From assembly GCF_000426605.1 (NCBI RefSeq), contig NZ_AUFR01000008.1, positions 1 to 64,000 on the forward strand: a stretch of 64,000 bases of DNA, read 5' to 3'. Positions 28,956 to 50,022 of this stretch are shown one piece after another (the first letter of the stretch is position 1; the number at the start of each line of letters is the position of its first letter). A program made the translations under genes and the position numbers. This DNA comes from Propionibacterium acidifaciens DSM 21887. Lineage in GTDB: Bacteria; Actinomycetota; Actinomycetes; Propionibacteriales; Propionibacteriaceae. The notes under the pieces were generated by a model that saw nothing but the letters and a program-made list of their open reading frames with translations, had not been told where the DNA came from and made no database searches.

Positions 28956-29179
28956 GAGTGCGCCCCCGGCGGGGCCTCGGCCGTCCGCCCGCCCGGGCCC
29001 CGGCCCCGGGTTCGATACGGCCGGTCCGGCGATGTCGGCGGCACCGGGCCCGCCCGGGACCCGGTCACCGCGTCCCCGGTGGAGACGCCCGTCGTCGTGC
29101 CCGCGCAGCCGCCGGCGGCCCTCGTCCATTGCGCTCACTCCCCTCGTCCGCGGATGCCATGGATCCGGTGCGTCCAGGC

Positions 29180-29223
29180 TGCGCCCGTGACTGTTCGGTC
29201 GGCGCCGAACAGTCACGGGCGCA
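29180..29223. promoter_or_regulatory. 19-bp-arm palindrome between MFS and regulator genes
   Basis: Left arm TGCGCCCGTGACTGTTCGG (29180-29198), six-base centre, and a perfect reverse complement at 29205-29223. It ends ten bases before the regulator ATG. Candidate operator through which the adjacent regulator controls itself and the divergent pump gene; a transcript hairpin is the alternative. Confidence 0.7.
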
Positions 29224-29233
29224 CACTGGGGGC

Positions 29234-29968
29234 ATGGGTGCGCGCGTGTTCCCCGAAGCGGTCCCGGATGTCTCGGCCGTCGCCTCGGCTCTGGCCGACC
29301 CGTCGCGGGCGGCGATGTGCGCCGCGCTCATGGACGGGCGGGCATGGACGGTCGGGGAGCTCGGCAGGTACGCGGGCCTGGCCCGGTCGACCGCCAGCGA
29401 GCACGTCGACGCGCTCACCGCCCACGGCCTCGTCCGCGAGCTCCGCCAGGGCCGTCACCGCTACATCCGCCTGGCCGGGGAGGACATCGCCCGTGTCATC
29501 GAGAGTCTCGGCGTCGTCGCCGGCTCGTCCCTGCCCACTCCCCGCAGCCTCAGCGCCTCACGCGCGAACGCGAACCTCCGAGCGGGCCGCACCTGCTATC
29601 GGCACCTCGCCGGTCGGCTCGGGGTGCGCCTGGCCGAACAGCTCGAGGACCGCGGGCTCATCGACCCCTGCTGGCGGGTCACCGGCCGGGGCCGTCGCCT
29701 CCTCGCCCGGTGGGGCGTGCCCGCCGAGATGCTCGACACGGGCGGCCCGTGCATGGACGCCACCGAACGCCGCTTCCACCTCGCCGGCCCCCTCGGCACC
29801 GGTGTCTGCACGGCCCTGCTGGACAGGGGATGGCTCTCCCGCACCGGCCGCACCCGGGCCGTGCGGCTCACCCCCGCCGGACGGGCGGCGCTCGACGACG
29901 CGGGCATCCGGCTCGACCGCCCGACGGCCGCCCCCGAGGATCCCGGTCGCCCTCCGGCCCGGACGTGA
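29234..29968 (+). CDS. ArsR/SmtB-like winged-helix regulator with C-terminal extension
   Basis: A 244-residue protein. The N-terminal winged helix spans about 15-85: ASALADPSRAAMCAALMDG, then AWTVGELGRYAGLARSTASEHVDALTAHGLVRE and the wing RQGRHRYIRLAGED. The remaining 150 residues have a second helical domain with three cysteines (TCYRHLAG, DPCWRV, GPCMDA), which might bind a ligand or metal. ArsR proteins are usually about 100 residues, so this belongs to the longer group. It probably represses the divergent MFS pump through the palindrome just upstream. The ATG is close to the operator. Confidence 0.85.
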   Translation: MGARVFPEAVPDVSAVASALADPSRAAMCAALMDGRAWTVGELGRYAGLARSTASEHVDALTAHGLVRELRQGRHRYIRLAGEDIARVIESLGVVAGSSLPTPRSLSASRANANLRAGRTCYRHLAGRLGVRLAEQLEDRGLIDPCWRVTGRGRRLLARWGVPAEMLDTGGPCMDATERRFHLAGPLGTGVCTALLDRGWLSRTGRTRAVRLTPAGRAALDDAGIRLDRPTAAPEDPGRPPART

Positions 29969-33547: not shown

Positions 33548-36478
33548 TCAGTCCTCCTGCCGACCCCGGTTCGCCGCCCAGAAGCGCTCGGCCTCGTCGC
33601 TGCGGCCCTCGCGGTCGAGCCAGGTCGCGCCGAGCGCCGCGAAGTCCCTGCGCAGTGCGGCGTCCTCCATCCGGTCGGCCAGCCCCATGGCCGCGCCGAT
33701 GTCGGCGAAGGCACCGCGCTCGTCGTGGACCGCCAGGCGGAGCCGGGCGCGCAGGTCGTGGACCGTGGCGGCGAACCTCTCGTTGCCGTGGGCGAGGATC
33801 CGCTCGGGCGCGTCGCCGAGCTCGGCCAGGGCCCGGTCGGCGGCGTGGTTGCTCCCCAGCAGGCGCACCCGGTCGATCGCGATGTCGAGCATCGTCATCT
33901 CGGGGTCGATGTTCGTCCGCTCGGCGAACTCGGGGTCGGTGAGCACCCGCTCGCACAGCGCCTGTCCGGCGGCGACCGCCTCGGCATGCACGGCGAGCCC
34001 GGCGTCCAAGCCGTCGGCGTCGGCGGCGGACCACATGCGGCGGCGCTGCAACGCCAGCAGCTCCATGGCGTCGCCGGCGGCGCGGGCCTGCTCGACGCCC
34101 TCCGTGTACGCCCGCAGCGCCTCGATCGCGTCGCGCTCGCTCAGCCCGTCGCCGACGATCTCGAGCAGCTCCGCCGCAGTGGCGGCCCTGCCGAGCTGGA
34201 TCGCGTCGTCGGCGCCGCGCCGGGCCAGCGAGACGGACCGTTCGGTCTCCCCGAGGCCGAGGCACAGCCGGGCGCCCATGCCGGCGATCTGGGTGCGCGA
34301 GTCGAGCATGGCGTCGGTGCCCCATCCCACATAGGGGTCGTCGGGGATCTCCAGGTCGGCCAGGGCGTGCTCGGCCACCTCGATCGCCTCGACGTCCCGG
34401 CCCTGCTTGAGCAGGAGCGAGCACAGGAAGCCCCGCGCATGGGTGCTCGCCTTCGGATCGCCCACACGCTGGGCGCAGGCGAGAGCGCGCTGGTAGCGGC
34501 GCTCGGCCGTGAGCCGGTCGCCCAGGAACTGGTGGATGCGGCCGCTGTAGCGCAGGGCCTGCGCCAACTGGTCGAGGGCGCCGGCGCTCTCCAGACGCCC
34601 CACGGCGTCGTCCACGACGGCGGCCGCCTCCTCGGCGCGGTCCTGCCTCCACAGCGCCTCGGCGCGGTGGTCGGCGAGGCGGCGCTGGAGCTCCGGGAAC
34701 TCCCCCGGCTGCAGCAGCGCGGCGGCGCGCTCGCACAGCGCCGACGCGACGTCGGGGTCGCCCGAGCAGCACATGAGCACGAGGCCGACCCAGCGGCTGC
34801 GGAGCTTCGGAGCGGACTCGGCCGTGACGCCGAGCGAGTCGAGCTCGTCGAGACGGGCCCGGCGCGACGCAGGGTCCTCGGGATCGAACACGGCGGTGCC
34901 GATGACGTTGAGGATCTCCTCGACGTCGCCGCTGGCCCGCACCTGCTCGGCGAGCGCGGCGGCACGCTCCTCGTCGTGGGTGATGGCGCTCGCGATCGCA
35001 TGCTGGAGCGCCGCCGCGCCCACGGTGTCGCCGGCCTGCTCCAGCAGCCGGATGGCGATCTCGGTCGCCTCGAGGCGCTGGGACTCGTGCACCGCCCCGG
35101 CGAGGTGGAGCGAGTTCACCACGAGGCTCGCGACGCTCCGGAGCAGCTGCGGGTCGCCGCTCGACTCGGCCCGGGCGATCGCCTCGTCGCGGAGCGTGCG
35201 CCAGCGCGCCTCGAACGCCGCGGCGGCGTCGGAGCCGCCCCACCGCAGGATGCGGTCGAGCAGCCCCTCGAGGTCCTCCGGCCGCGCGGCGGCGATCTCG
35301 TCCGGACGCACCGCGCGCGGATGCGACGACAGGCCGTTGAGCGGCTCGGCACGGCGCGCATCGGGCGCCGTGCCCGTGGTCAGCGGCATCGGCGGCAGCG
35401 GGCCGGCATCGATGAAGTCCTCGCGCACCATGCGGCCCACGGAGTCGTTCCCGTTGCGGGCGTCGTAGGCGGCGGCGGTCTCGAGGGCGCGGGCGACCAG
35501 GTCGTCGTAGAGGCCCTGGTCGATGACGAGCTCGCTGCCGTCGTGGACGCGCAGCGCCTGCCCCGCCATCCCTTCGGCCAGGCAGGCGCCGACGAGCCGG
35601 GCGGCAGCGGCCCGCAGGAGCATCCCGGTCCGAGGGTTGTCGAACTCGCGCACCTGCTCCCAGCGGTGGGCCATCAGCTCCAGGCCACGGGCCAGGGCCC
35701 CGGTGCGCGCGCACAGCAGGACGTGCCTGTCCACGACGCCGGTCTTCCCGACGTCGTCGCGCGTCTGGCGCCAGGCGCGCAGGTGGTGCCCGGCGGCGTC
35801 GTCCATCCGGCCGAGCTCGGCGGCGCACAGGGCGGCCAGGCTCAGCGAGTGACAGGGCTCCTCCTCGCACGCGGACCCGCCCTGCAGCACGGGGGCGAGG
35901 AGTTCGAGGGCGCGCTCGTACCGGCCCCGGTCGTACCAGTGCTCGGCCCGGGCCCGGGCCGAGCAGGCCGGGCAGTCGCTCATCTCGCAGCGGGGCAGGG
36001 CGGTCCAGGCGTCGAACTCGGCCTCGGCGGCGGCTTCGCCGCGGGTGGCCGAGACGAACTCGTAGCGGCACTTGGCGACCGGTTCCGGGCCGATCCCGGC
36101 CGCCGTGTAGCGCCGCTGCATGTCGGCCAGCAGCGCCTCGACCTGGGCGAGGGGGATCTGCGGGTAGTCGGGGGCGTTGTCGACGATCCACTTGTTGCAC
36201 CACAGGATGGCGTGGCGGTACTCGTCGGTGAGGGCCGGTGAGTCCGCGTCGTAGCGCTGCACGAGCCAGGCGAAGGGGACGAAGGACTCCGAGGGGCGCC
36301 CGCCGAGGGTGAGTGCCGTGACGAGCGCCAGGCGCACGGCGATGCCGAGCCGCTCGTCGCCGAGCTCGTCGGCCAGCCCCACGGCCTGCTCGAGCGGCCC
36401 GATCCGTTCGGCGTAGGGGCGTCCGATCATCGTGTCGTGCAGCCGGATGATCCGTTCGCGGATGTCCTCGTCGCTCAT
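33548..36478 (-). CDS. large helical-repeat (TPR-like) protein in an HSP90-like operon
   Basis: A 976-residue soluble protein almost entirely of helical pairs resembling tetratricopeptide repeats (for example AEHWYDRGRYERALELLAPVL near 178; RQDRAEEAAAVVDDAVGRLE near 600; GDRLTAERRYQRALACAQRVG). A cysteine cluster at 164, 169, 172, 204 and 209 (CEMSDCPACSA and ACEEEPCHS) may bind a metal. Residues about 380-445 (GLSSHPRAV, RWGGSDAAAAFEARWRTLRDEAI) match the N-terminus of the preceding gene product, so the two are paralogues. Its ATG overlaps that gene's stop (ATGA). Likely a scaffold or partner of the HSP90-like ATPase; function unknown. Confidence 0.8.
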   Translation of the reverse strand: MSDEDIRERIIRLHDTMIGRPYAERIGPLEQAVGLADELGDERLGIAVRLALVTALTLGGRPSESFVPFAWLVQRYDADSPALTDEYRHAILWCNKWIVDNAPDYPQIPLAQVEALLADMQRRYTAAGIGPEPVAKCRYEFVSATRGEAAAEAEFDAWTALPRCEMSDCPACSARARAEHWYDRGRYERALELLAPVLQGGSACEEEPCHSLSLAALCAAELGRMDDAAGHHLRAWRQTRDDVGKTGVVDRHVLLCARTGALARGLELMAHRWEQVREFDNPRTGMLLRAAAARLVGACLAEGMAGQALRVHDGSELVIDQGLYDDLVARALETAAAYDARNGNDSVGRMVREDFIDAGPLPPMPLTTGTAPDARRAEPLNGLSSHPRAVRPDEIAAARPEDLEGLLDRILRWGGSDAAAAFEARWRTLRDEAIARAESSGDPQLLRSVASLVVNSLHLAGAVHESQRLEATEIAIRLLEQAGDTVGAAALQHAIASAITHDEERAAALAEQVRASGDVEEILNVIGTAVFDPEDPASRRARLDELDSLGVTAESAPKLRSRWVGLVLMCCSGDPDVASALCERAAALLQPGEFPELQRRLADHRAEALWRQDRAEEAAAVVDDAVGRLESAGALDQLAQALRYSGRIHQFLGDRLTAERRYQRALACAQRVGDPKASTHARGFLCSLLLKQGRDVEAIEVAEHALADLEIPDDPYVGWGTDAMLDSRTQIAGMGARLCLGLGETERSVSLARRGADDAIQLGRAATAAELLEIVGDGLSERDAIEALRAYTEGVEQARAAGDAMELLALQRRRMWSAADADGLDAGLAVHAEAVAAGQALCERVLTDPEFAERTNIDPEMTMLDIAIDRVRLLGSNHAADRALAELGDAPERILAHGNERFAATVHDLRARLRLAVHDERGAFADIGAAMGLADRMEDAALRRDFAALGATWLDREGRSDEAERFWAANRGRQED

Positions 36479-37485
36479 GCCGCTCCCCCTCCCGCCGGAC
36501 TCCCGGACGGATCGTTCCACGGACCCGGGTCGTCCCGGTGGTCCTCGTCCCAGCGCACGGCCTCCTCGTGGCGCCCGTGCTCCTCGAGCCAGTCGCGGCC
36601 CTCCGCCAGCAGCCGCCGGTGCTCCCGCTCGTCGCCCCGCCCGCGGGCCAGGTCCTCCAGCTGCTCCGAGGCCCTGTGCATGAGCCTGGTCACCTCCACC
36701 GTCATGCCCATCGAACACTGGCGGTCGGCCTCGGCGCGCAGGATGGCGACGGCCTGCGCGCCCTGGCCGGTCTGCCGGGCCGGGTCCGCCCGGCGCCGGG
36801 CCCGGGCGGCGCGCAGCGCGGGGAACTCGTCGTCGAGCAGACAGGCGTCCACGGGATCGGGGAGGTCGAGGATGCCGTCGAAGGCCGCTCCGAGGCCGAG
36901 GACCGCGCGGCCCATCCGCATACGGGTCATCGGCTCGCTCATCACGTCGATGCCCAGGGCCCGCAGCTCGGCCAGCCGGGCGCGCGCAGCGTCCGGGTCG
37001 CCGCCGTCGATCCGGGTGCGGGAGAGCGCGGTGACGAGGACGCGGGCCCCGCCGCAGGCGCGGGTCCGGTCGAGCAGCATGTCGCCGCGCACGGCGTCCC
37101 CGTCGAGCCCGACCGCGAGCAGGTGCTCCAGGTCGAGCGCGCGGGCGGTGTCACCGGCCCGGGTGAACAGGTCGACCACGGTCTCGATGCGCTCCGGGTC
37201 GCGGGCGTCGGTGACGCCGAAATCGGCGATCCCGGTGTCCATCTCCAGGCAGGCCGGCGCATGGGGCGGCTCGCGGTCTCCCGTGGCCCCGGCCCACTCG
37301 ATCGCTCCGGCGCGCAGCTCCTCCCAGCGCGTCACGATCGCCTGCTGCGCCTGCCAGCCACCCCAGCGGGTCGCGTCGACGAACAGCTCGGCGAGACGGC
37401 GGGCGCCGGCGCGGGCCACCGCCTCGGGGGCGAAGGGATGACGGGACAGGCCGCTCGCCGGTCCCGCCTCGTGGTCACCGGTCAT
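36475..37485 (-). CDS. helical-repeat protein, paralogue of the following gene product
   Basis: A 336-residue soluble alpha-helical protein. It starts MTGDHEAGPASGLSRHP, then RLAELFVDATRWGGWQAQQA and TRWEELRAGAIEWAGATGD, which align with residues 380-445 of the 976-residue neighbour. The latter half has TPR-like helices (GAQAVAILRAEADRQ; RLLAEGRDWLEEHGRHEEAVRWDEDH). The gene overlaps the HSP90-like gene by 11 bases and the next gene by 4, so all three are translationally coupled. It looks like a shorter co-factor of the same system. No catalytic motif is visible. Confidence 0.78.
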   Translation of the reverse strand: MTGDHEAGPASGLSRHPFAPEAVARAGARRLAELFVDATRWGGWQAQQAIVTRWEELRAGAIEWAGATGDREPPHAPACLEMDTGIADFGVTDARDPERIETVVDLFTRAGDTARALDLEHLLAVGLDGDAVRGDMLLDRTRACGGARVLVTALSRTRIDGGDPDAARARLAELRALGIDVMSEPMTRMRMGRAVLGLGAAFDGILDLPDPVDACLLDDEFPALRAARARRRADPARQTGQGAQAVAILRAEADRQCSMGMTVEVTRLMHRASEQLEDLARGRGDEREHRRLLAEGRDWLEEHGRHEEAVRWDEDHRDDPGPWNDPSGSPAGGGAA

Positions 37486-39298
37486 CGTCGCCCTCCAGGG
37501 CGCGTTCGAGCAGGGCGAGGAAGGAGTGGTCGACGGCCGCCAGGTCGGCCGCGCGCAGCCGGTGCCCAGCGGCCAGCAGGGCGCGGGCGTAGAGCGACTC
37601 GGCGGCCGGGGAGACGAGCTCGTCGTCGCCGAGGGCGAGCATCCTGCGCACGAGGGGGTTGTCGTCGTTGAGCAGCAGGCGGGGTCTGACCGGCGTCGGA
37701 CGCATCGTCGCGAGCAGGGCCGCCCAGGTCTCGTCGGCGCCGGCGGCGACCTCGTCGGAGGCGGCCGCGGCGCGGGCCCGCCCGTCCTCCAGGTGGAGGG
37801 CCGGCATCGAGGACGGCGCGAAGGCCCGCAGCTCCACGTCGACGTCGAGCCGCCCCAGGGCCCGGCGGGCGCGCTCCAGCGCGGGCCGGGCGGCGCGCAG
37901 CCGTTCCTCCGGCACGGCGCGGATGTGCGCGTCGAGGTCGCGCGGCGACAGGGGTTCGGCCCGCAGCCCGGGCAGCACCCGTGGGGCGCGCAGGGCCAGC
38001 TCGGCGTCGTAGACGTAGCCGCCGTTGAGCACGTCGATGCCCTGGGCGGCGCCGACCGCGGCCATCTGACGGTAGTCGTCGACGGTGCGCGCCACGCGGA
38101 TGACGTCGGTGCGCTCGGCGAGCTCGGGCAGGGTCGCCTCGCCGGTGTTCGTCTCGAAGCGCAGCACCGGCAGCAGGGTCTCGAAGAGCTCGTCGTCACC
38201 GAGCGCCATCGACTTGGCGGCGACCGAGTGCACGGCGAGGAAGCGGTTGATCCGGGCCGGGTCGGTGGCGGCCAGGCGCAGGATCCAGCGGCGGATCTGC
38301 CCGCCGAGGCTCGTGCGGACCGTCTCGTGGAGCTCGTCCTCGCGGAGCCCCTCGCGGCTGGCCGTCGGCGTCAGCCGGGTGGCGTCGACGACGGCCCGGG
38401 CGAAGAAGGCCCAGTCGGGCAGCAGACCGGGAACGTTCTCGGACAGGAGCATGCCGTGCAGGTGGACGCGGTGGCCGCCGCGCGAGCCGGCCTGCGCCTG
38501 CTGGTCGAGGATGACGACGACGCCGTCGAGACCGGCCTCGGGGACGGCCACCGGCAGCACGGCGAGGGGCTCGACGCCCAGCTCCTCGCGGGCGAGGCGC
38601 TCGCACTCGCGACGTCGGGCGCGGCCCGCCAGCCGCCACGGCGGCGTCGTCGGGGCGATGGTCACCGGGGTCGCGTCGGGGCGGGCGCTCACGACGCGGT
38701 ACGGCAGGTAGGAGCCGAAGGTCCTCGCCAGCCGGGTGACGCGCTCGGAGGTGAGCCAGTGGGCGGTGGCGGCCGTCGGGCGCAGCGAGACGCACGTGCC
38801 GGGGCCGGCGGCGAGCCAGGCGGTGCGCTCGTCGTCGAGGCCGGACGCCGGGACCGTCTCGTGGGTGCCGTCCTCGTGGCCGATCCAGCGGATCGCCGGC
38901 CCGTCGCCCTTGCGGGTGAGCACCTCGATGCGGTCGGTGACGACGAAGCAGCTCAGCAGGCCGATGCCGAAACGGCCGAGCATCGTCTCGTCGTGGCCGC
39001 GCTTCGACGAGCCGCCGATGGTGGCGAGGAAGGCGCGCACGTCGTCGGCGTCCAGCCCGACGCCCGAGTCGAGGCAGTGCATGCGCCCGTCGGAGGCGGC
39101 GTCCGAGCCGATGAGCTCGATGCCGGGGCGCCGGTCGCCGGGGCGGGGATCGGATGCGGTGAGCGCGTCGACGCCGTTCTGCAGGAGCTCGCGCACGAAG
39201 ACGCGCGGGCTCGAGTAGAGGTTGTGGCCGAGCAGGCCGACCAGGCCGCGCAGGTCGACCCGGAAGGCGTCGTCGCTCTGGGTGTCGTTGCTGGGCAC
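37475..39298 (-). CDS. HSP90-family (HtpG-like) ATPase, divergent C-terminus
   Basis: A 607-residue protein with a GHKL ATP-binding domain: ELLQNGVDA (Glu37 catalytic, Asn41 Mg2+ ligand), DSGVGLDADDV (Asp77) and GRFGIGLLSCF (108-118). The middle domain keeps the family loop TASREGLREDEL with its arginine. The C-terminal third is unlike canonical HtpG and lacks a recognisable dimerisation sequence. HSP90s are ATP-driven chaperones. The GTG at 39298 lies seven bases after TAGGCT, supporting a leaderless start; an in-frame ATG at 39418 is rejected. First gene of a three-gene coupled operon with two related TPR-like proteins. Confidence 0.88.
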   Translation of the reverse strand: MPSNDTQSDDAFRVDLRGLVGLLGHNLYSSPRVFVRELLQNGVDALTASDPRPGDRRPGIELIGSDAASDGRMHCLDSGVGLDADDVRAFLATIGGSSKRGHDETMLGRFGIGLLSCFVVTDRIEVLTRKGDGPAIRWIGHEDGTHETVPASGLDDERTAWLAAGPGTCVSLRPTAATAHWLTSERVTRLARTFGSYLPYRVVSARPDATPVTIAPTTPPWRLAGRARRRECERLAREELGVEPLAVLPVAVPEAGLDGVVVILDQQAQAGSRGGHRVHLHGMLLSENVPGLLPDWAFFARAVVDATRLTPTASREGLREDELHETVRTSLGGQIRRWILRLAATDPARINRFLAVHSVAAKSMALGDDELFETLLPVLRFETNTGEATLPELAERTDVIRVARTVDDYRQMAAVGAAQGIDVLNGGYVYDAELALRAPRVLPGLRAEPLSPRDLDAHIRAVPEERLRAARPALERARRALGRLDVDVELRAFAPSSMPALHLEDGRARAAAASDEVAAGADETWAALLATMRPTPVRPRLLLNDDNPLVRRMLALGDDELVSPAAESLYARALLAAGHRLRAADLAAVDHSFLALLERALEGDDDR

Positions 39299-39311: not shown

Positions 39312-39555
39312 GGCCCTGCCCCGCCCGGCGCGCCGGACGGCCGCGGAAGGGCCCGGAGGGGTCGGGGCCCTCGTACGCCCGCGGGGCGAGCCGCGTCCGG
39401 GCTCGTCAGGGCCCTCATCGTGCGGGGCGGGCGGCCCGCGCGACGGCCTCCGCGCCCCGGCGCGTGCGGGGCGGCGCCACGCCGGTGCGGGGCCCCGTCA
39501 GGGGGTCCCCGAGCGCCCCGGCCCGCGGATCGCCCCTGCCGCCGAACCGGCCCTA

Positions 39556-41665: not shown

Positions 41666-42439
41666 TCATGGCGTGCGGACGGTGGCCTCACCGGGGTGGG
41701 CGGCGATCACCCGCGCCTTGTCCGTGGCGGCCAGGAGCTCGGGCGCCAGCTGATGATCGACGGACAGCGCGAAGCCGACCCTTCCGCCCTGCTGCCCCAC
41801 CAGGTCGATCAGCCGTTCGAGCACTTCCTCACGTCCCCCGATCAGGTCGACCCGCTCAGGGGCCGCCGTCGTGAACAAGTCGACCTCGAGGTCCTCGTCG
41901 AAGTGGATGAGAAGACTCGCCACGAGCCGGTCGACGTCGTGACTGCCCAGAACCACCCAGGAATCCGGCGATATCGCCGAGGCCACCTTGGCGACGATCT
42001 CCTCATGGCCCCAGCCGAGTCGCCATTGCAGTCCCAGCTGACCGCTTGCCGGCCCGGGATGCACCACGATACCCTCAGGATCGTCGTCGAGGGCGGCAAA
42101 CATGGTCGTCACGAAATCGTCCAGATCGGCGTCGATCGTCCATGCCCCTTGGACCCGGGCGAAGTAGTCATCGACGGCATCGCGTTCCATGACCATGACG
42201 AATTCGACCCGCTCGTTGAACTCGGCGAACAGTTCCACGGCCGTCCGCCTGGGATCGGTGATCGAGGTCGGGGCATCGGCGAGGGGTTCCCCGTCGGAGA
42301 AACGCGCCTTCTGGACTCGGCCATGGTCGTGGATGATGACCAACCGGGGAGCAGCCTTCCCGGAATGCAGGATGAGGTCCTGGGCGGCGCGCCATTGATC
42401 GACGTCGATGTCAAGCATCTGCGCATTCGCGTGCAACAT
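41666..42439 (-). CDS. hypothetical protein of the galactoside operon
   Basis: A 257-residue soluble protein that I do not recognise. Parts suggest alternating strands and helices (LVIIHDHGRVQKARF; RVEFVMVMERDAVDDYFARVQG; SWVVLGSHDVDRLVASLLIHFDEDLEVDLF). Two similar blocks (about 20-110 and 120-215) might be internal repeats of one fold. It starts 12 bases after the beta-galactosidase gene and is the last gene of the LacI-controlled operon, so a role in handling the imported sugar or its regulation is inferred. Codon use matches the island rather than the flanking genes. Confidence 0.7.
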   Translation of the reverse strand: MLHANAQMLDIDVDQWRAAQDLILHSGKAAPRLVIIHDHGRVQKARFSDGEPLADAPTSITDPRRTAVELFAEFNERVEFVMVMERDAVDDYFARVQGAWTIDADLDDFVTTMFAALDDDPEGIVVHPGPASGQLGLQWRLGWGHEEIVAKVASAISPDSWVVLGSHDVDRLVASLLIHFDEDLEVDLFTTAAPERVDLIGGREEVLERLIDLVGQQGGRVGFALSVDHQLAPELLAATDKARVIAAHPGEATVRTP

Positions 42440-42451
42440 TGATGGTTCCTT

Positions 42452-44536
42452 TCAGTCCAGGGCGATGCGGAAGGCGTGGACGGTGTAGGGCAGGAGTTCG
42501 CACATGAGGGGTTCCGTGCTGGACAGCTGTTCGCCCGACCACGCATCCTGGCATGCCACGATGGGGGTCTCGGCCGTGACCGTAGCGGTCTGCGGCTCGT
42601 CCGTGGGGTTCGCGATGAAGACGACGACATCCTTCGGGTTCGCCGAATTCAGATGGATCGTCGAGCGCAGCAGCTGGTTGTCGACCGTCACCGGGGTTTC
42701 CCCGAGACCGGCCAGGACCCGGCCCAGTACAGCCGCCATGTCGCCGGGCGACGCGACGACGTGAACGCTCCCCTCGCCGAGCTCCGCCGATCCCGCCGAA
42801 TTGCCGCCCAGGGCGTCGGAAAGGATCGTGCACGGCTCCATGTCGGCACCGAGAGTCGGGACCGTGGGCCCGATGATCAGCGTCCCGCCCTGACGAACGT
42901 AATCGACAAGGGTCCGCTGGGTCTGCGCGGAGAGGAACTCGAAGGTGGTGAGGACAACGATCCTGCGCTGCGCGAGCAGCTCGAGATCTGCCTCCGTGTC
43001 GCTGATGACGAAGCCGGCACGTGACCGCTCCAAGTTCTCGTACCAGGCCCCGAACCAGTCGCGCTTCGCCAGCTGGACGGGCTGCTGGAATCCGATGTCG
43101 CTCTCATCGACGGTGAGGATGTTCGGGTACTCGCTGAACGTGCTGGGGGTCTCCAGGAAATCGCCCGGGAACGACACGAGCACGCTGGCAGCCTCCAGCC
43201 TGTCATAGTCACGATTCGCCAGCAGGGCGACCGGGGCGAGAAGATCCATGTGCTGCCAGTCGAGGCGGTCGAGCATTCTGTTGGCCTGCCCGAAGACGTG
43301 GGCCTTGTCCTCCCGCACGGTGCCATCACGACGGATCGGGGAGTCGAGCCACCTGTCGCGTTCGACGAGCATGTACCTGCTGAACCCCTTGATGCCATGC
43401 ATCAGTGCAGCCTTGGTGACGAATTCCTCATCACGCAGGTCCCCGGGGTTCAGGTACCAGGCCCAGACACCTGCGATGAACTCCGGGATGTACGGATACC
43501 GGCTCGACCCGGACACATAGCTCGTGACCGTCCTCACGTGCTGGAAGAGTTCCTTGCGGGAATAGACATCGAAGCCGACGAAATCGACAACCCGCTCCAA
43601 GGCGATGAGATTGAACGGCGTCGTGAAGTTGGACGAGGCACCGCCCGGCCCGAGCGGATGCGGGTAGTTGTGGAAGAGCGGAATCGAGGCCAGGCCACGC
43701 TCACGGAGCATGTCGGCGAGCCGAGCAATCGAGTCGACCAGATAGTTCTCCCGGTACTGCGCCCAGTCCAAGTAGACCGGCAGGTCGCCGGGCTGCCGTG
43801 CGCAGAACTTGCGCGGCGGATCCACGTCTTCCAGGGCGTCGTACCGGGTACGGTGGGCCTTGGAGATCCCGGCCAGGGAACCGTACTTCTCGGCGAGGAA
43901 CGCGCGATACTTCTCGATCGAGGCCTCGGAGTAGTCCGACGAATAGTAGTTGAGTCCGAAGAAATAGGCCATCTCGTTGTCGACCTGGCAGGCGACGAGC
44001 CCGCCCTTCGGGTAGGCGTGCCGTGCTAGGATGGGGCAGATCGCGTCATACCACAACGCGGTCTCCTCGAAGAACTTGTCAGCGGCGTAGCTCAGGGCCG
44101 GGATCGGGCGGGGCGCCTGGGTGAGGACCACTCGCGTACCGCGTGCATTGCGGGCGTGCAGCGACTCATCGGCGAGGATACGCTGCGGGTACCCGAATCC
44201 GGTGAGTTCGGAATTGATCTGCGGCCCCGGCCGCACGACGATACGAAGGCCTTTCTCCTCACAAAGGCTCAGGAAGGCATCGATGTCGTTCGCGGGGTTG
44301 ATCTCACCGAAATCAAACCTGCCGCGCTCCAGCTCATGGACCTCCCACGGGATGTAGATGGAGATCATGCGATAACCCATGGCCACGACGGCGTCGAGGA
44401 TCCCTGACCACTTCTCCCGATCAAGCCGCCAGTAGTGGACGGCACCGCCGTAGAGCGCCCCGGGCTCACCCTCGATCAGGAATCTCTGGTTCGCCACCTC
44501 GAGCTGAGGCGTCTTTTCCAATGGAACGGTTCCCAT
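42452..44536 (-). CDS. beta-galactosidase-like glycoside hydrolase (GH35/GH42 clan)
   Basis: A 694-residue TIM-barrel hydrolase without signal peptide. GGAVHYWRLDREKW near 30 and IYIPWEVHELERGRFDFGE near 60 are the beta-galactosidase start. Acid/base Glu188 lies in QVDNEMAYF and nucleophile Glu352 in PEFIAGVWAWY, matching the GH35 layout. A Rossmann-like domain follows (GTLIIGPTVPTLGAD), then a small beta domain. It should release galactose from a sugar imported by the adjacent ABC system. ATG at 44536 with GTGAAAGGA upstream, 20 bases after the permease gene. Confidence 0.88.
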   Translation of the reverse strand: MGTVPLEKTPQLEVANQRFLIEGEPGALYGGAVHYWRLDREKWSGILDAVVAMGYRMISIYIPWEVHELERGRFDFGEINPANDIDAFLSLCEEKGLRIVVRPGPQINSELTGFGYPQRILADESLHARNARGTRVVLTQAPRPIPALSYAADKFFEETALWYDAICPILARHAYPKGGLVACQVDNEMAYFFGLNYYSSDYSEASIEKYRAFLAEKYGSLAGISKAHRTRYDALEDVDPPRKFCARQPGDLPVYLDWAQYRENYLVDSIARLADMLRERGLASIPLFHNYPHPLGPGGASSNFTTPFNLIALERVVDFVGFDVYSRKELFQHVRTVTSYVSGSSRYPYIPEFIAGVWAWYLNPGDLRDEEFVTKAALMHGIKGFSRYMLVERDRWLDSPIRRDGTVREDKAHVFGQANRMLDRLDWQHMDLLAPVALLANRDYDRLEAASVLVSFPGDFLETPSTFSEYPNILTVDESDIGFQQPVQLAKRDWFGAWYENLERSRAGFVISDTEADLELLAQRRIVVLTTFEFLSAQTQRTLVDYVRQGGTLIIGPTVPTLGADMEPCTILSDALGGNSAGSAELGEGSVHVVASPGDMAAVLGRVLAGLGETPVTVDNQLLRSTIHLNSANPKDVVVFIANPTDEPQTATVTAETPIVACQDAWSGEQLSSTEPLMCELLPYTVHAFRIALD

Positions 44537-44556
44537 GTTATTTCCTTTCACTTCTC

Positions 44557-45528
44557 TTATTTCTTGCTGCCCAGTGCCACGGCAAGGATGATGATGACCC
44601 CTCGGACGACCTGCTGCTGCGGGGAACTGAGACCTGCCAGAATCAGCCCGTTGTTGATGAGTCCCATGAAGAGTGCGCCGAACACGGTCCCGAGGACGGA
44701 GCCACGGCCACCCGCCAGGGCCGTGCCGCCAAGAATGACGGCCGCGATGGCGTTCATCTCGTCGCCTTGGCCCCACTGGTACCGTCCGGATTGCAGCCGC
44801 CCGGCGTACAGCATTCCGCCGAGCGCAGCGACGACCGCGGAGATCAGCATGACCAGGAATTTCGTTCGGACAACGCTGATCCCGGTGTAGATCGAAGCAG
44901 TCGGATTGGCGCCGACCGAGACGACATGACGCCCGAAGCGGGTCTTCTTGAGAACAAATGCGCCGCAGCCCGCCACGATGAGGAACCAGATCACCAGGCC
45001 CGGCAACGGTCCGATGTCACCGGAGCCAAAGGCCATGTTGTAGCCCTGCTTCAGGATGGGCTGGGGCGCAGAATCAGTGACCCATTGGGCCAGGCCGAAC
45101 GCGATCCCCATCATTGCCAGGGTCACCAGGAATGACGGGATCTTCACGAAGGCCACCAGACTTCCGTTGATGAGACCGATGAGCATCCCGACCATGAGCC
45201 CCACGACGATTCCGGCAAGAATGCCCCAGTGGGAGATCGCCATGGCCGTGACCACGGAAACGAGTCCGGCCACCGAGCCGACCGAAAGATCGATTTCGGC
45301 ATCGGCGATGACGAAAGTCATCCCCACCGCGATCACGCCCACGATGGCGCTCTGCCGGAGGATGTTCATGAGGTTTCCGCTGGTGAGAAAGCCCCGATCG
45401 TCAAGCACGACTGCGAACAGGACGAAAGTGACGGCGAACGCCAGGTATATGATGTACTGCCCAAGGTTCACCCGGCTCAACAGGCCCTTGGCCCGGGAAT
45501 GTGTCCCCCCGATTGATGATTCGGTCAT
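44557..45528 (-). CDS. CUT2-type sugar ABC transporter permease (RbsC-like)
   Basis: A 323-residue permease with about eight to ten membrane helices. The CUT2 loop IDLSVGSVAGLVSVVTAM and the C-terminal AVILGGTALAGGRGSVLGTVFGA are family signatures (RbsC/MglC/XylH). It passes a sugar delivered by the lipoprotein encoded upstream. Its start overlaps the ATPase stop by four bases. Confidence 0.93.
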   Translation of the reverse strand: MTESSIGGTHSRAKGLLSRVNLGQYIIYLAFAVTFVLFAVVLDDRGFLTSGNLMNILRQSAIVGVIAVGMTFVIADAEIDLSVGSVAGLVSVVTAMAISHWGILAGIVVGLMVGMLIGLINGSLVAFVKIPSFLVTLAMMGIAFGLAQWVTDSAPQPILKQGYNMAFGSGDIGPLPGLVIWFLIVAGCGAFVLKKTRFGRHVVSVGANPTASIYTGISVVRTKFLVMLISAVVAALGGMLYAGRLQSGRYQWGQGDEMNAIAAVILGGTALAGGRGSVLGTVFGALFMGLINNGLILAGLSSPQQQVVRGVIIILAVALGSKK

Positions 45529-47036
45529 TGCTCAACTCCTTGTACCCACATCTCCAACGTGGTTTCGTCCGGCACCGCATCCGCCGGAAGACTGCGGATG
45601 ATGGAGCCACCTCGCATGATGAGATACCGATCACTCATGGCGATGAGTTCTTGATACTCACTCGAAACAACAAGGACTGCACCGCCGTCTCGAGCAAACT
45701 CCCTCACCTGTCTGACAATTTCTGATTTCGTTCCGATGTCCACCCCTGCGGTCGGCTCGTCCATGAGCAGCAGTCGGGGGCCGACCCCCAGCCACTTGCC
45801 GATCACCACTTTCTGCTGGTTGCCGCCCGACAGCACCTCGACGGGCAGGTTCGGGCCTGCGCCCCTGATGCCGTAGGAACCAATCAGCTGAACTGCGCGA
45901 TCCCGTTCGGCGGCCGCGGAGAGCAGACCGCCGCGCAGCACCGCCGAGAGATCCGGAAGAACGAGGTTCTCCTGGACGGAGTGCTTGAGTATGAGTCCTT
46001 GACGGCGCCGATCCTCCGGAATCAGCACGACGCCTGCCGCGATGGCGTCCCTCGGACTCTTCGGCGACATGGGTCGACCGTCGAGGACGACACTGCCCAT
46101 GGTTATCCGATTGATTCCGAACAAGGCCTCAAGGAGCTCGGTCCGGCCGGATCCCATGAGTCCTGCCACCCCTATGACCTCACCGGCGTGCACCTCGAAG
46201 GAGACATCGTGCAGCTTGCGCTGCGCACTCACGCCGGTGACTTGCAGCAGCACGCCCCCGCACTGCCCCGTGGAACCAGCAGCAGTGAGGGCCACGGCCT
46301 TCCCCGCTATCCCCCGAACGATCTCTTCCTGGGTGGTCTCGGAGATCGGCCTGGTGAGCAGATTCGATCCATTCCGGAGAATCGTTATCCTGTCCGCTAT
46401 CTCGTAGATCTCCTCCATGCGGTGGGATATGTAGATGATGCCGATGCCCTGCTCCCGAAGGTTCCGCAGCAGCTCAAAAAGCCGATCCGCCTCCTTCCTG
46501 GCCAATGACGCGGTGGGCTCGTCCATGATGAGCACTCGGGCTCTCCCCCGCAAGGCCTTGGCAATTTCGGTGAGCTGCCAATAGGCCGTGCCCAGGGACG
46601 CCAGCTCGGCACACGGATCCAGGTCGACCTGCATCCGCTCCAATATCTCCCGGGCGCCGGCAACCATCTCAGCATCCCGGATGAGCATTGCCGAGCGCGG
46701 CTCATCATTGAGGTAGATGTTCTGCGCGACCGTCAGCGTGGGGACCAGGGAGAACTCTTGGAAGACCATCCCGATACCCTGACGCCGCGCATCGGCGTAC
46801 GTGTTCAGCTGGGCCGGCCTCCCCTGGATCTCAATCGTTCCGGCATCTTTCTGGTAGACGCCCTGGAGGATCTTCATGAGAGTTGACTTGCCGGCCCCAT
46901 TCCCTCCCGCCAGCGCGTGTATCTCCCCTGCCCTCACTTCGAAGCCGACATCGTTGAGGACCTGCACGCCGTTGAAACTCTTGCGGATGCCCGACATCCT
47001 GATCAAGGTCGGCTCAGTGCAACCGGTCACAGTCAT
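45525..47036 (-). CDS. CUT2-type sugar ABC transporter ATPase (RbsA-like, two domains)
   Basis: A 503-residue tandem ATPase. Domain 1 has Walker A GGNGAGKST (about 48-56) and Walker B VLIMDEP, but its signature reads LGTAYWQLTEIAKAL instead of the usual LSVGQQQMVEIAKAL. Domain 2 has the CUT2-type degenerate Walker A (AGLMGSGRTELL), signature LSGGNQQKVVIGKWL and LLLMDEP. It drives sugar import. Its ATG overlaps the stop of the binding-protein gene by four bases, and its stop overlaps the permease start, so the three are coupled. Confidence 0.93.
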   Translation of the reverse strand: MTVTGCTEPTLIRMSGIRKSFNGVQVLNDVGFEVRAGEIHALAGGNGAGKSTLMKILQGVYQKDAGTIEIQGRPAQLNTYADARRQGIGMVFQEFSLVPTLTVAQNIYLNDEPRSAMLIRDAEMVAGAREILERMQVDLDPCAELASLGTAYWQLTEIAKALRGRARVLIMDEPTASLARKEADRLFELLRNLREQGIGIIYISHRMEEIYEIADRITILRNGSNLLTRPISETTQEEIVRGIAGKAVALTAAGSTGQCGGVLLQVTGVSAQRKLHDVSFEVHAGEVIGVAGLMGSGRTELLEALFGINRITMGSVVLDGRPMSPKSPRDAIAAGVVLIPEDRRRQGLILKHSVQENLVLPDLSAVLRGGLLSAAAERDRAVQLIGSYGIRGAGPNLPVEVLSGGNQQKVVIGKWLGVGPRLLLMDEPTAGVDIGTKSEIVRQVREFARDGGAVLVVSSEYQELIAMSDRYLIMRGGSIIRSLPADAVPDETTLEMWVQGVEQ

Positions 47037-48196
47037 CCCTCCAGCGCCTGCCGCACTTCTTCGGGCGGATCGGTGTGATAGACGCTCCGCCAGGCATCAG
47101 CAACATTGTCCCTGGTCACCGCCAGCGGGCTCAGCGCAATGAAGGCCGGAATCGTCTGGCCAAACAGGGCCTTGACCGCTGCATTTGCCTCGGTGATCCC
47201 GGCATCATATGGACGCTGTGCGCCGAGTCCGCAGACATACTGGCCCTGGGCCATTGCGATAGCAACATTCTTGCCAAGATCTTCGGAGGCCACTCCAAGA
47301 TCTGTCCGGCTTGCCGAACGCGCCGCCGCGATGACTCCCTCAGCGGGGACGTCCCACACGGCCCAGATGCCGTTCAGATCGGCGTTCTGGCTGAGGAGGG
47401 CATCGGCTTGTTTCTGCGCAGAGCCGGCGAGATCCGAACCACTGATGCCTCGCTCCGCAATGATCCGGATGTCCGGGTAATTGCTCGTGAGCGTCTCTTT
47501 GAACCCCTGGTAGCGCTGGTTCGTCACGAAGTAATCGGCTTCGTAATAGATGGCAGCGATCTTCCCCTGCCCGCCGAGGGTCTTCGCCATGAGATGCGCT
47601 GAGATCGCCCCGTTCCCGTAGTTGTCGGACGAGACGACACAGGCATAGTCCGAACCAGCGGTGAAGCCGTCCGGACAGTTGTCCATGAACACGACCTTGA
47701 CGCCTTGGTCCACGGCCATTCGATATGCCGAGGCAGTCGCGACAGGATCGGTGGGGATGGAGACGAGGATGTTCGGTTTCTGGGCCAGGATCGTCTCGAC
47801 GTCGGACACCTGCTTGCTGGGGTCCATGTTCGCGTCCGTGGTCGACGTGATCTTGATGCCGAGCTCGTTGAACCGCGACGTGAGGCCAGCGATCTGCGCC
47901 GCCGACCAGTCGTCACCGCTCGTGTGCATCGCAATCGCGGCGGTCGCCCCCATCGCTTTCACGGTGTCGATGTCGGAGTCGGTGAGGTCGACCTCCGAGG
48001 CGGCGGCGGCGCTCTCGCCATGCGGCCCGGTGGCACTCACGGCCGATTCCAGCTGACGGATCGCCTCATCGGCCTTCGCGTTGACCTCCGCATTCGTTGC
48101 CGTTGCCGTGCTCTCACCAGAAGACGTACATCCCTGCAGGAACAACGCGCTGATCGGAATACCAGCCGCAGCAAGCAAGACAGTTCGTCGTTGCAT
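47033..48196 (-). CDS. sugar-binding lipoprotein of the CUT2 importer
   Basis: A 387-residue lipoprotein. The signal peptide MQRRTVLLAAAGIPISALFLQGC ends in a lipobox (LQGC), so the mature Cys is acylated. The rest is a periplasmic-binding-protein fold of the ribose/galactose type (ILVSIPTDPVATASAYRMAVDQGVKVVFMDN; GNGAISAHLMAKTLGGQGKIAAIYYEAD; ADLNGIWAVWDVPAEGVIAAAR). The ATG at 48196 follows AAGGAG by eight bases; an upstream in-frame ATG lacks one. First gene of the galactoside operon. Confidence 0.92.
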   Translation of the reverse strand: MQRRTVLLAAAGIPISALFLQGCTSSGESTATATNAEVNAKADEAIRQLESAVSATGPHGESAAAASEVDLTDSDIDTVKAMGATAAIAMHTSGDDWSAAQIAGLTSRFNELGIKITSTTDANMDPSKQVSDVETILAQKPNILVSIPTDPVATASAYRMAVDQGVKVVFMDNCPDGFTAGSDYACVVSSDNYGNGAISAHLMAKTLGGQGKIAAIYYEADYFVTNQRYQGFKETLTSNYPDIRIIAERGISGSDLAGSAQKQADALLSQNADLNGIWAVWDVPAEGVIAAARSASRTDLGVASEDLGKNVAIAMAQGQYVCGLGAQRPYDAGITEANAAVKALFGQTIPAFIALSPLAVTRDNVADAWRSVYHTDPPEEVRQALEG

Positions 48197-48255
48197 CGTC
48201 AATCTCCTTCGATCCACGTTGACTCACGGTTGACGCGTGCGCCGCAATCCTTTGA

Positions 48256-48297
48256 TTGTGAACGTTTCGTCATCACATAGTGTGAACGTTTTGCACA
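48256..48297. promoter_or_regulatory. putative LacI-family operators upstream of sugar operon
   Basis: The sequence TGTGAACGTTT occurs twice in direct orientation, at 48257-48267 and 48281-48291, each with a palindromic AACGTT centre typical of LacI-family sites; the second is followed by TTGCACA. The pair lies about 60-100 bases before the operon start and is the natural target of the adjacent LacI-type regulator. Confidence 0.6.
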
Positions 48298-48619
48298 GCC
48301 GTGTCAAGAGCTGCTCCCGCACGGATCAGCGCCGCTGATGCGTGGCTCGGATCCGCCCCGGGACGAGGCATCACACCTCTTCCCGTGGTGGGCAGCGGGA
48401 TCGAGCACAAGGGCGGCGGTACGTCACGTGAACGCCATGAGTCCGCTCACCCGGCGCCCAGCGCACTGGTGGGACGTCCGGTGACTGACGAGCCGATGGG
48501 GGCCACGCCCGTCCCGTCGGCCCGACTCGCTCGGAGGACGTCCCGTTGCACCGCACCCCGGGACGCGACCGGACGTCGCGGCACGCCGGGCCGCGCCCCC
48601 CGGGTCACCGATCGGGAAC
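48298..48619. other. intergenic, no gene seen
   Basis: About 320 bases between the sugar operon promoter and the 3' end of the LacI-type gene. No convincing gene or hairpin. Confidence 0.45.
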
Positions 48620-49696
48620 TCACCCGGTGGTGCTGGACCGTGCGACGGCGGCACGGGGCCGTGCGACAGAGCTCCTCACCGTCAGCACCGGCGGTATGGC
48701 GACCGTGCCGGCGGGTTCGCCCTGGATGAGACGCAGGAGCATGTGCACAGCCTCCTGCCCCAGGCGGTTGAAGTCCTGCCGGACGCTGTCGAGCGGGGGG
48801 TAGAACTGGGCGGCGAACTCGCTGTCGTCGAAGGAGACCGCGCTGATGTCGTCCGGCACACGCACCCCGGCCTCGTAGAAGGCCCTCAGCATCCCCAGGC
48901 ACATGAGATCACTCGCAACGAAGATCGAGGAGGGCAAGCCCTCGTCGAGCATGCGCCTACCCGCGGCGTAGCCGCTCTCCCCGGTCCAGTCGCCCTGGAT
49001 GTGGGGTGGCGGCTCGATGCCCGCTGCGCGCAGCTCGGACTGCCACCCGCGCAACCGCACCCGGCCATCCAGCCAGCTGAGTTCCCCCGCGAGGTGAGCC
49101 ACTTCACGATGTCCCTTGTCGAGCAGGCGACGTGTCGCGAGCCGCGCACCGTACTCCTGGTCCTCCGAGACGACGGCGACCCCTGGGACGCTTGACTCCC
49201 CGGCAGCGACCATCACGACCGGCACTGAGAACTTCGTCTCACGGACCGCCTCCGCCAGAGGCAGTTTGGGGGCGATGACCACGATGCCCGCGACGCCCTG
49301 ATCGATGAAGTGCTGGTACGCGCGAACCGTGCCACGCGAGTCGGCCTCGGCAAGCACGAGGACATTCGCGGCGTAGCCCTCGTCCCTGGCCGCGTTCTCG
49401 ACTGCCGCGAGAACGCCGGCCGGCCCGTAGCGCGTCGAGCCATCGGTGAGAATTCCGATGAGGCTCGACCTCCGCATGACCAGCGCCCGGGCTGCGGGGT
49501 TCGGGACGAAACCCGTGGACTGGATGATCCTCCACACGTGATCGCGAGTACGGTCGCTCACCCGTGGGTCGTCATTGATCACGCGTGAGACAGTCTGGTA
49601 CGAGACATCTGCCAAGCGGGCAACGTCCTTGATGCTCATCCGTTCCGAGCGATGGGCCCGCGCGACGGTTGCCCTGGTCTTCTTGGGGTTGCTCAC
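48620..49696 (-). CDS. LacI-family transcriptional regulator
   Basis: A 358-residue regulator. The N-terminal LacI helix-turn-helix and hinge are SIKDVARLADVSYQTVSRVINDDPRVSD and VPNPAARALVMRRSSLIGIL. A periplasmic-binding-like sensor domain follows (AGIVVIAPKLPLAEAV; SIFVASDLMCLGMLRAFYEAGVRVPDDISAVSFDDSEFA). It should repress the sugar operon downstream until an inducer binds. GTG 49696 is chosen because GACAAT lies six bases before it as a possible leaderless -10; an ATG at 49639 directly before SIKDVARL is the alternative. Confidence 0.92.
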   Translation of the reverse strand: MSNPKKTRATVARAHRSERMSIKDVARLADVSYQTVSRVINDDPRVSDRTRDHVWRIIQSTGFVPNPAARALVMRRSSLIGILTDGSTRYGPAGVLAAVENAARDEGYAANVLVLAEADSRGTVRAYQHFIDQGVAGIVVIAPKLPLAEAVRETKFSVPVVMVAAGESSVPGVAVVSEDQEYGARLATRRLLDKGHREVAHLAGELSWLDGRVRLRGWQSELRAAGIEPPPHIQGDWTGESGYAAGRRMLDEGLPSSIFVASDLMCLGMLRAFYEAGVRVPDDISAVSFDDSEFAAQFYPPLDSVRQDFNRLGQEAVHMLLRLIQGEPAGTVAIPPVLTVRSSVARPRAAVARSSTTG

Positions 49697-49985
49697 CTCG
49701 GAATTGTCCCACTCCAGTCGTGAGAACCGGCCGGCCCGGCCCGGATCTCCTGGCTGCAGCACGGCGCCCCGGCCCGAGGCGCGATGCTTCCAGCCGATCG
49801 CTCATGCGCACCGGGCGTATGAACAGGGCCGGTACGGTACGCACTCCTGCTGCACTGGCGTCCCGGCATCTCTTCGCAGCACCGGTCCACGTTCCTGGTT
49901 CTCGCCCGCACCGGGACGGAAGTACTGGCGCGCACCAGACACGGGCAGGAGCCGGTCGAGCTCGCGGATTCGAACCCCGACCTTC
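49697..49985. other. intergenic, tRNA T-arm-like fragment
   Basis: No gene seen. On the minus strand the stretch 49982-49966 reads GGTCGGGGTTCGAATCC, which looks like the T-arm of a tRNA, but no D-arm, anticodon arm or acceptor stem can be built around it. Confidence 0.4.
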
Positions 49986-50022
49986 GAGCATCGAGATGAC
50001 CACCGGCGTGTCGGCCCCGCCG
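49986..50022. repeat. 37-bp near-copy of an internal pntB segment
   Basis: Matches 59394-59430 (inside pntB, codons for [10 protein letters not shown]) with two mismatches over 37 bases. It lies directly downstream of the sortase gene stop and next to a tRNA-T-arm-like sequence. Confidence 0.6.

Follow-up and report, generated by a model that had tools for sequence, protein, structure and literature searches.

A non-canonical bacterial Hsp90 and its co-occurring helical partner protein, a candidate dedicated co-chaperone

Introduction

Does a bacterial Hsp90 that shares an operon with helical-repeat proteins use them as co-chaperones of its own? To our knowledge, the standard account of bacterial HtpG is that of an Hsp90 acting without co-chaperones of its own. 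The question is raised by three genes in a 64,000-nucleotide stretch of the genome of Propionibacterium acidifaciens, the whole of which is called the window here. A genome-scale study that excluded hsp90B and hsp90C stated that obligate bacterial Hsp90 co-chaperones are not known (Press et al. 2013, PMC3708813). Our analysis of the locus and its homologs indicated that the window operon exemplifies a partnership present in many bacterial phyla, between an unstudied type of Hsp90 and an uncharacterised partner protein.

Results

Organization of the operon

The operon consists of three minus-strand genes, located at 39298-37475, 37485-36475 and 36478-33548 and encoding proteins of 607, 336 and 976 amino acids, respectively. 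Gene 1 starts with GTG, with an in-frame ATG upstream at 39418, and genes 2 and 3 start with ATG. All three genes show a strong codon-position GC bias, with an in-frame GC3 of 0.93-0.97. Genes 1 and 2 overlap by 11 bp (37475..37485, minus strand) and genes 2 and 3 by 4 bp with the sequence ATGA (36475..36478, minus strand), exactly as an earlier note on this DNA had read them. From this strict coupling the note had argued for a stoichiometric complex, a step that we find unsupported, since gene overlap by itself is no demonstration of one. No CIRCE or HAIR heat-shock operator was found upstream beyond what shuffled sequences gave. Scans for sigma-70 promoters and terminators found nothing, as expected at the GC content of the window.

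Gene 1 encodes a full-length NF010683-type Hsp90

The product of gene 1 (37475..39298, minus strand) matches the NCBIfam profile NF010683 over residues 7-604 of 607 with 602.2 bits (cut-off 455; E 1e-180). By this profile it is a full-length member of a known named family, NF010683 / PRK14083 “HSP90 family protein”, referred to here as HSP90C. The canonical HtpG model NF003555 gives 108.4 bits, under its cut-off of 371. The GHKL/HSP90 N-terminal and middle domains reported for this protein earlier are present, and the ATPase residues E37, N41 and D77 and the SRE arginine R315 are kept and invariant in our alignments. No other gene of the 3.04-Mb genome to which the window belongs matches the Hsp90 model.

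An AlphaFold2 model of the protein (54-sequence alignment; pLDDT 90.1, pTM 0.86) places the N-terminal, middle and C-terminal domains in the Hsp90 order. It aligns end to end, C-terminal domain included, with human Hsp90, TRAP1 and HtpG (Z ~30). The alignment of residues 1-606 to 7krj_A has a Z score of 29.9 and an rmsd of 7.7 over 564 residues, and the best Foldseek match has an E value of 7.6e-33. The C-terminus had been described as non-canonical. Because the model aligns through the Hsp90 C-terminal domain, what was seen there is sequence divergence, and the protein is predicted to keep the complete Hsp90 fold. No conserved EEVD/MEEVD-type tail was found on HSP90C among 80 loci; the window protein ends in EGDDDR.

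The partner domain of gene 3

Comparison of the neighbors of other NF010683 genes led us to recognise a domain of about 365 amino acids at the N-terminus of the gene 3 product (gene 3, 33548..36478, minus strand). This partner N-domain comprises residues 1-365 (35384..36478, minus strand) and, as delimited by two alignments (A1/A6) and the structural model, is all-helical with pLDDT mostly >90. No Pfam or NCBIfam model represents it, and scattered TPR repeat models match in some members only. A sequence profile built from the domain matched only generic TPR/PPR designs and repeats. Several positions are strongly conserved. A CxxC motif (Cys169 and Cys172; 35963..35974, minus strand) is 92-93% conserved in 119 sequences, and Cys204 (35867..35869, minus strand; 92%) is followed by Pro208 (97%). 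Near the end of the domain lies an FDxRNGND signature, here YDARNGND at residues 338-345 (35444..35467, minus strand), whose Arg341 is found in 116/116 aligned sequences.

Residues 392-976 of gene 3 (33551..35305, minus strand) form a C-terminal TPR array. The evidence is a TPR_12 match below threshold and an LGN-like TPR fold with a Z score of 18.5 over 317-325 residues; a fold search with the gene 3 model returned matches to this half only. TPR repeats of the partner are too divergent to register. The added array is characteristic of the actinomycete partners, while adjacent partners outside Actinomycetota are mostly a single domain of about 350 amino acids. The C-termini are modular, carrying TPR, DUF4026 or YbjN. 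DUF4026 occurs in some Oscillospiraceae-type partner paralogs (L113:9719-11995, L141:6301-8571 and L142:8827-11169), the last two of which lie away from the Hsp90 gene.

One HSP90C may have several partner paralogs, two in Listeria and four in Myroides. The four Myroides paralogs stand in tandem behind one Hsp90 (L118:7761-12209), and in Listeria two single-domain partners follow the Hsp90 gene in tandem on its 3' side (L015:7758-9726). One of the latter is probably lmo0941, a gene reported to be under selection in neuroinvasive strains and to have an unknown function (PMC6901971).

Gene 2 is a local duplicate

The earlier note had described a homologous block common to genes 2 and 3. The block is real, as blastp aligns gene 2 (36475..37485, minus strand) with residues 377-667 of gene 3 at 29.6% identity over 291 amino acids (E 1.4e-21). 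It lies in the C-terminal TPR half, and gene 2 carries no partner N-domain. What is conserved in gene 3 is the N-terminal domain, which the earlier note did not single out, rather than the block in common with gene 2. In a sister genome of the same genus, gene 2 encodes 602 amino acids (L018:9793-11598), and its homology to gene 3 extends over the entire C-terminal half. By blastp the window copy matches residues 1-296 and 562-600 of that protein; in comparison with it, about 265 amino acids are missing from the interior of the window copy, with the frame still open. Since the other sampled genera of the order have no gene of this type between the Hsp90 and partner genes, gene 2 looks like a copy of the TPR half of gene 3 that arose by duplication at the genus level and lies outside the core system.

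Conserved order of the Hsp90 and partner genes

The partner domain adjoins HSP90C on its 3' side and on the same strand in 103 of 115 homologous loci, so the conserved synteny that the earlier note had asked about does hold for the Hsp90 and its helical partner. The two genes overlap in 70 of the 103 adjacent pairs, by exactly 4 bp in 48. Adjacent pairs occur in Bacillota, Planctomycetota, Acidobacteriota, Myxococcota, Bacteroidota, Pseudomonadota, Deinococcota and Actinomycetota. Among the remaining 12 loci, three are at or near a contig end (L079, L058 and L102) and one has a frameshift in its Hsp90 gene (L037). Gene 2 lies between the pair in L018, from the genus of the window, while the partner is directly upstream in L123 and convergent in L081. 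In the other five (L073, L094, L107, L109 and L129) the partner is not nearby, yet the domain is encoded elsewhere in each genome. Across 80 named loci no third gene family accompanies Hsp90 and partner, the next family being found in 9.

We found no natural fusion of HSP90C with the partner. A long frame at L037 (G002:C1:3205158-3206913), in a genome of the order of the window, was considered as one and rejected: the HSP90C gene is frameshifted near residue 490, which leaves its C-terminal part out of frame.

Co-occurrence across genomes

A total of 745 genomes were sampled from Actinomycetota, Bacillota and Planctomycetota, and each sample was searched with both the Hsp90 and the domain queries. 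HSP90C was above cut-off in 10 actinomycete genomes, that of the window included, and the domain was present in 10/10; two further genomes have the domain alone. The same 4 genomes have HSP90C and the partner domain in Bacillota, as do the same 7 in Planctomycetota, where the two are unlinked in G819, G876 and G459. Summed over the three samples, the domain occurs in 21/21 HSP90C genomes and without HSP90C in 2 of 745 (Fisher p ~1e-38), domain genomes being counted by strong matches, with a few weak ones in the generic repeat region (E 1e-3 to 1e-8) left out. Repeat proteins usually occurring without the HSP90 gene had been named as an outcome that would speak against the pairing; only 2 of 23 domain genomes show it.

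All 24 of the HSP90C genomes tested for the partner domain have it, including the five in which the genes are unlinked, and two genomes with a duplicated HSP90C have a partner for each copy. The partner is missing from the genomes listed with canonical HtpG alone in the three samples, except G351. One planctomycete genome, G903, has a fragmented Hsp90 below the cut-off, and no partner was detected in it. Taken together, the genome comparisons give good support for a functional coupling of HSP90C and its partner that survives both unlinking and gene duplication.

The two domain-only loci are instructive. At L038:6802-11441 an IS110-like transposase gene lies directly upstream, at the position expected for Hsp90, which is possibly a case of Hsp90 loss through insertion. 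At L039:9005-10606 the domain and YbjN form one fusion protein, and another YbjN-like gene lies immediately upstream. On a plasmid of Actinomyces oris, for which the plasmid record alone was examined, the domain is two genes away from a YbjN gene (L164:5307-10024). YbjN may be a second, Hsp90-free companion of the partner domain.

Restriction to one Hsp90 clade

In a tree of 66 Hsp90s, a quick version with long branches, a single branch (SH-aLRT 100) separates the 48 partner-linked proteins from the 18 others, which comprise canonical HtpG and a second Planctomycetota type. Partner linkage changes once on this tree. Apart from the two domain-only genomes in 745, the partner domain is found only in company with a single Hsp90 clade. 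Hsp90 and partner distances are correlated over 104 pairs (mirror-tree r 0.945, or 0.69 among distant pairs), a correlation that shared descent alone would partly produce. The second Planctomycetota type (L146-L150, in G893, G877, G849, G736 and G832) is a further divergent Hsp90 that scores ~265-300 bits to NF010683, has no partner and is possibly Group B.

Genes around the operon

The neighbors of the operon in the window encode an MFS transporter, an acetyl-CoA hydrolase, a 4-alpha-glucanotransferase, a GH35 protein and sugar ABC components. At 42000-50000 the GC content falls to 0.61-0.67 from ~0.72; this region, with its genes for GH35, an ABC ATPase and a sugar-binding protein, looks like an acquired sugar-use cluster. 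An ArsR/SmtB-like regulator at 28958-29968 lies beside an MFS transporter gene, which is on the opposite strand. The ORFs tested at 30-33.5 kb matched no known family.

Discussion

Proposed roles of the two proteins

We lean, with modest confidence, towards a two-part chaperone system in which gene 1 is an Hsp90 paralog and gene 3 a dedicated TPR-type co-chaperone or adaptor. Gene 1 would be a non-canonical paralog that runs the normal ATP-driven clamp cycle. The N-domain of gene 3 would dock on it as an obligate partner, while the variable C-terminal part, which is a TPR array here, absent in most phyla and DUF4026 in some Oscillospiraceae, might recruit clients or add an effector. The conserved cysteines could bind a metal or sense the redox state. 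Gene 2, recently duplicated from the TPR half, would be at most an accessory client adaptor. We infer direct binding, a co-chaperone rather than a client direction, the role of the cysteines and the existence of clients. The earlier proposal, which paired a dedicated bacterial HSP90 with co-chaperones of its own, is borne out in part: the 103/115 synteny and the co-occurrence in three phyla agree with it, but the two co-chaperones it envisaged become one, gene 2 being a duplicate. More tentatively, this ancient Hsp90 branch may be an obligate two-component machine whose helical co-chaperone, through its cysteine site, makes Hsp90 activity metal- or redox-dependent, and which is independent of the eukaryotic system and docks differently.

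The main rival turns the relationship around. The helical protein would be an obligate client or effector that HSP90C folds, loads or switches, for example via the cysteine site, and the helical protein itself would do the cellular job. Co-occurrence alone cannot separate an obligate client from a co-chaperone, and a tight one-to-one gene order with near-perfect co-occurrence suits both. The conserved cysteines exceed the needs of a simple TPR scaffold, and the domain can stand alone or fused to YbjN, which also fits a client. However, a client would be expected at times to be lost with the chaperone kept, and no such genome was found above the cut-off; the variable C-termini and the several paralogs per Hsp90 look more adaptor-like, though they are compatible with clients. 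We regard a client as unlikely overall.

It is less probable still, indeed rather improbable, that the two proteins merely belong to one pathway and are co-expressed with no mutual contact. Operon structure alone would yield the synteny, but the co-occurrence holds where the genes are unlinked (the five loci and three planctomycete genomes above), and no other gene of a supposed pathway is common across the neighborhoods. A sensor or anti-phage defence complex of a GHKL ATPase and a helical sensor, which the earlier note had raised as a defence-island idea, is very improbable: the distribution of HSP90C is patchy, some copies are on records deposited as plasmids and PADLOC models matched gene 1 only in its generic GHKL portion (TmtA, E 5e-7), yet the neighborhoods give no defence signal, with carbohydrate and transport genes around the window operon, generic ABC-ATPase and ArsR-like matches among its neighbors (defence models having been run on the window proteins only), no nuclease, TIR or other effector common near the pair across 80 named loci, and five phage-record matches that are short, unannotated, in four cases labelled Listeria phage and perhaps host DNA.

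The two-part chaperone system remains the reading that we prefer. Because the partner protein accompanies this Hsp90 almost without exception, it is a strong candidate for a dedicated co-chaperone of the kind that bacterial Hsp90 had been believed to do without. The presence of the partner in 21/21 HSP90C genomes above cut-off in three phyla offers a direct answer, open to testing, to the question whether Hsp90 co-chaperones evolved in bacteria. A protein family without a Pfam or NCBIfam model is now named for testing, and Listeria, with lmo0941, is a well-studied organism that already carries the Hsp90 and partner system.

Relation to known systems

Gene 1 belongs to NF010683 / PRK14083 by the curated cut-off, and that record names the Hsp90 alone and not the partner, whose gene is a “hypothetical protein” in Streptomyces globosus and Listeria records. 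In open-licence PubMed Central we found no paper on the pairing of an NF010683 Hsp90 with a helical partner. Chen et al. 2006 placed HtpG Group C, which includes Firmicutes and Actinobacteria, at the base of the Hsp90 tree and reported that S. coelicolor has two HtpG copies in different groups (PMC1525184). Like gene 1, Group C or hsp90C is a deep-branching bacterial Hsp90 paralog beside canonical HtpG, and NF010683 is probably the same as HtpG Group C (PMC1525184) and hsp90C (PMC3708813), with which its distribution agrees. Canonical HtpG (NF003555) shares the Hsp90 fold and the ATPase residues with gene 1 but forms a separate clade without the partner, and gene 1 reaches 108 bits against its cut-off of 371. 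LGN/Pins and other TPR superhelices have the repeat fold of the C-terminal half of gene 3 in common with it, a likeness that is functionally uninformative.

Eukaryotic Hsp90 and its TPR co-chaperones (Hop, FKBP51/52, PP5 and CHIP) resemble the present pair in having a TPR-like partner with modular effector parts. The eukaryotic pair differs in its MEEVD tail, which is absent here, and the homology of the partner N-domain to TPR proteins is only generic. As HSP90C has no MEEVD-like tail, the TPR docking mode of eukaryotes is unavailable to it, and its partner must therefore dock in a different way.
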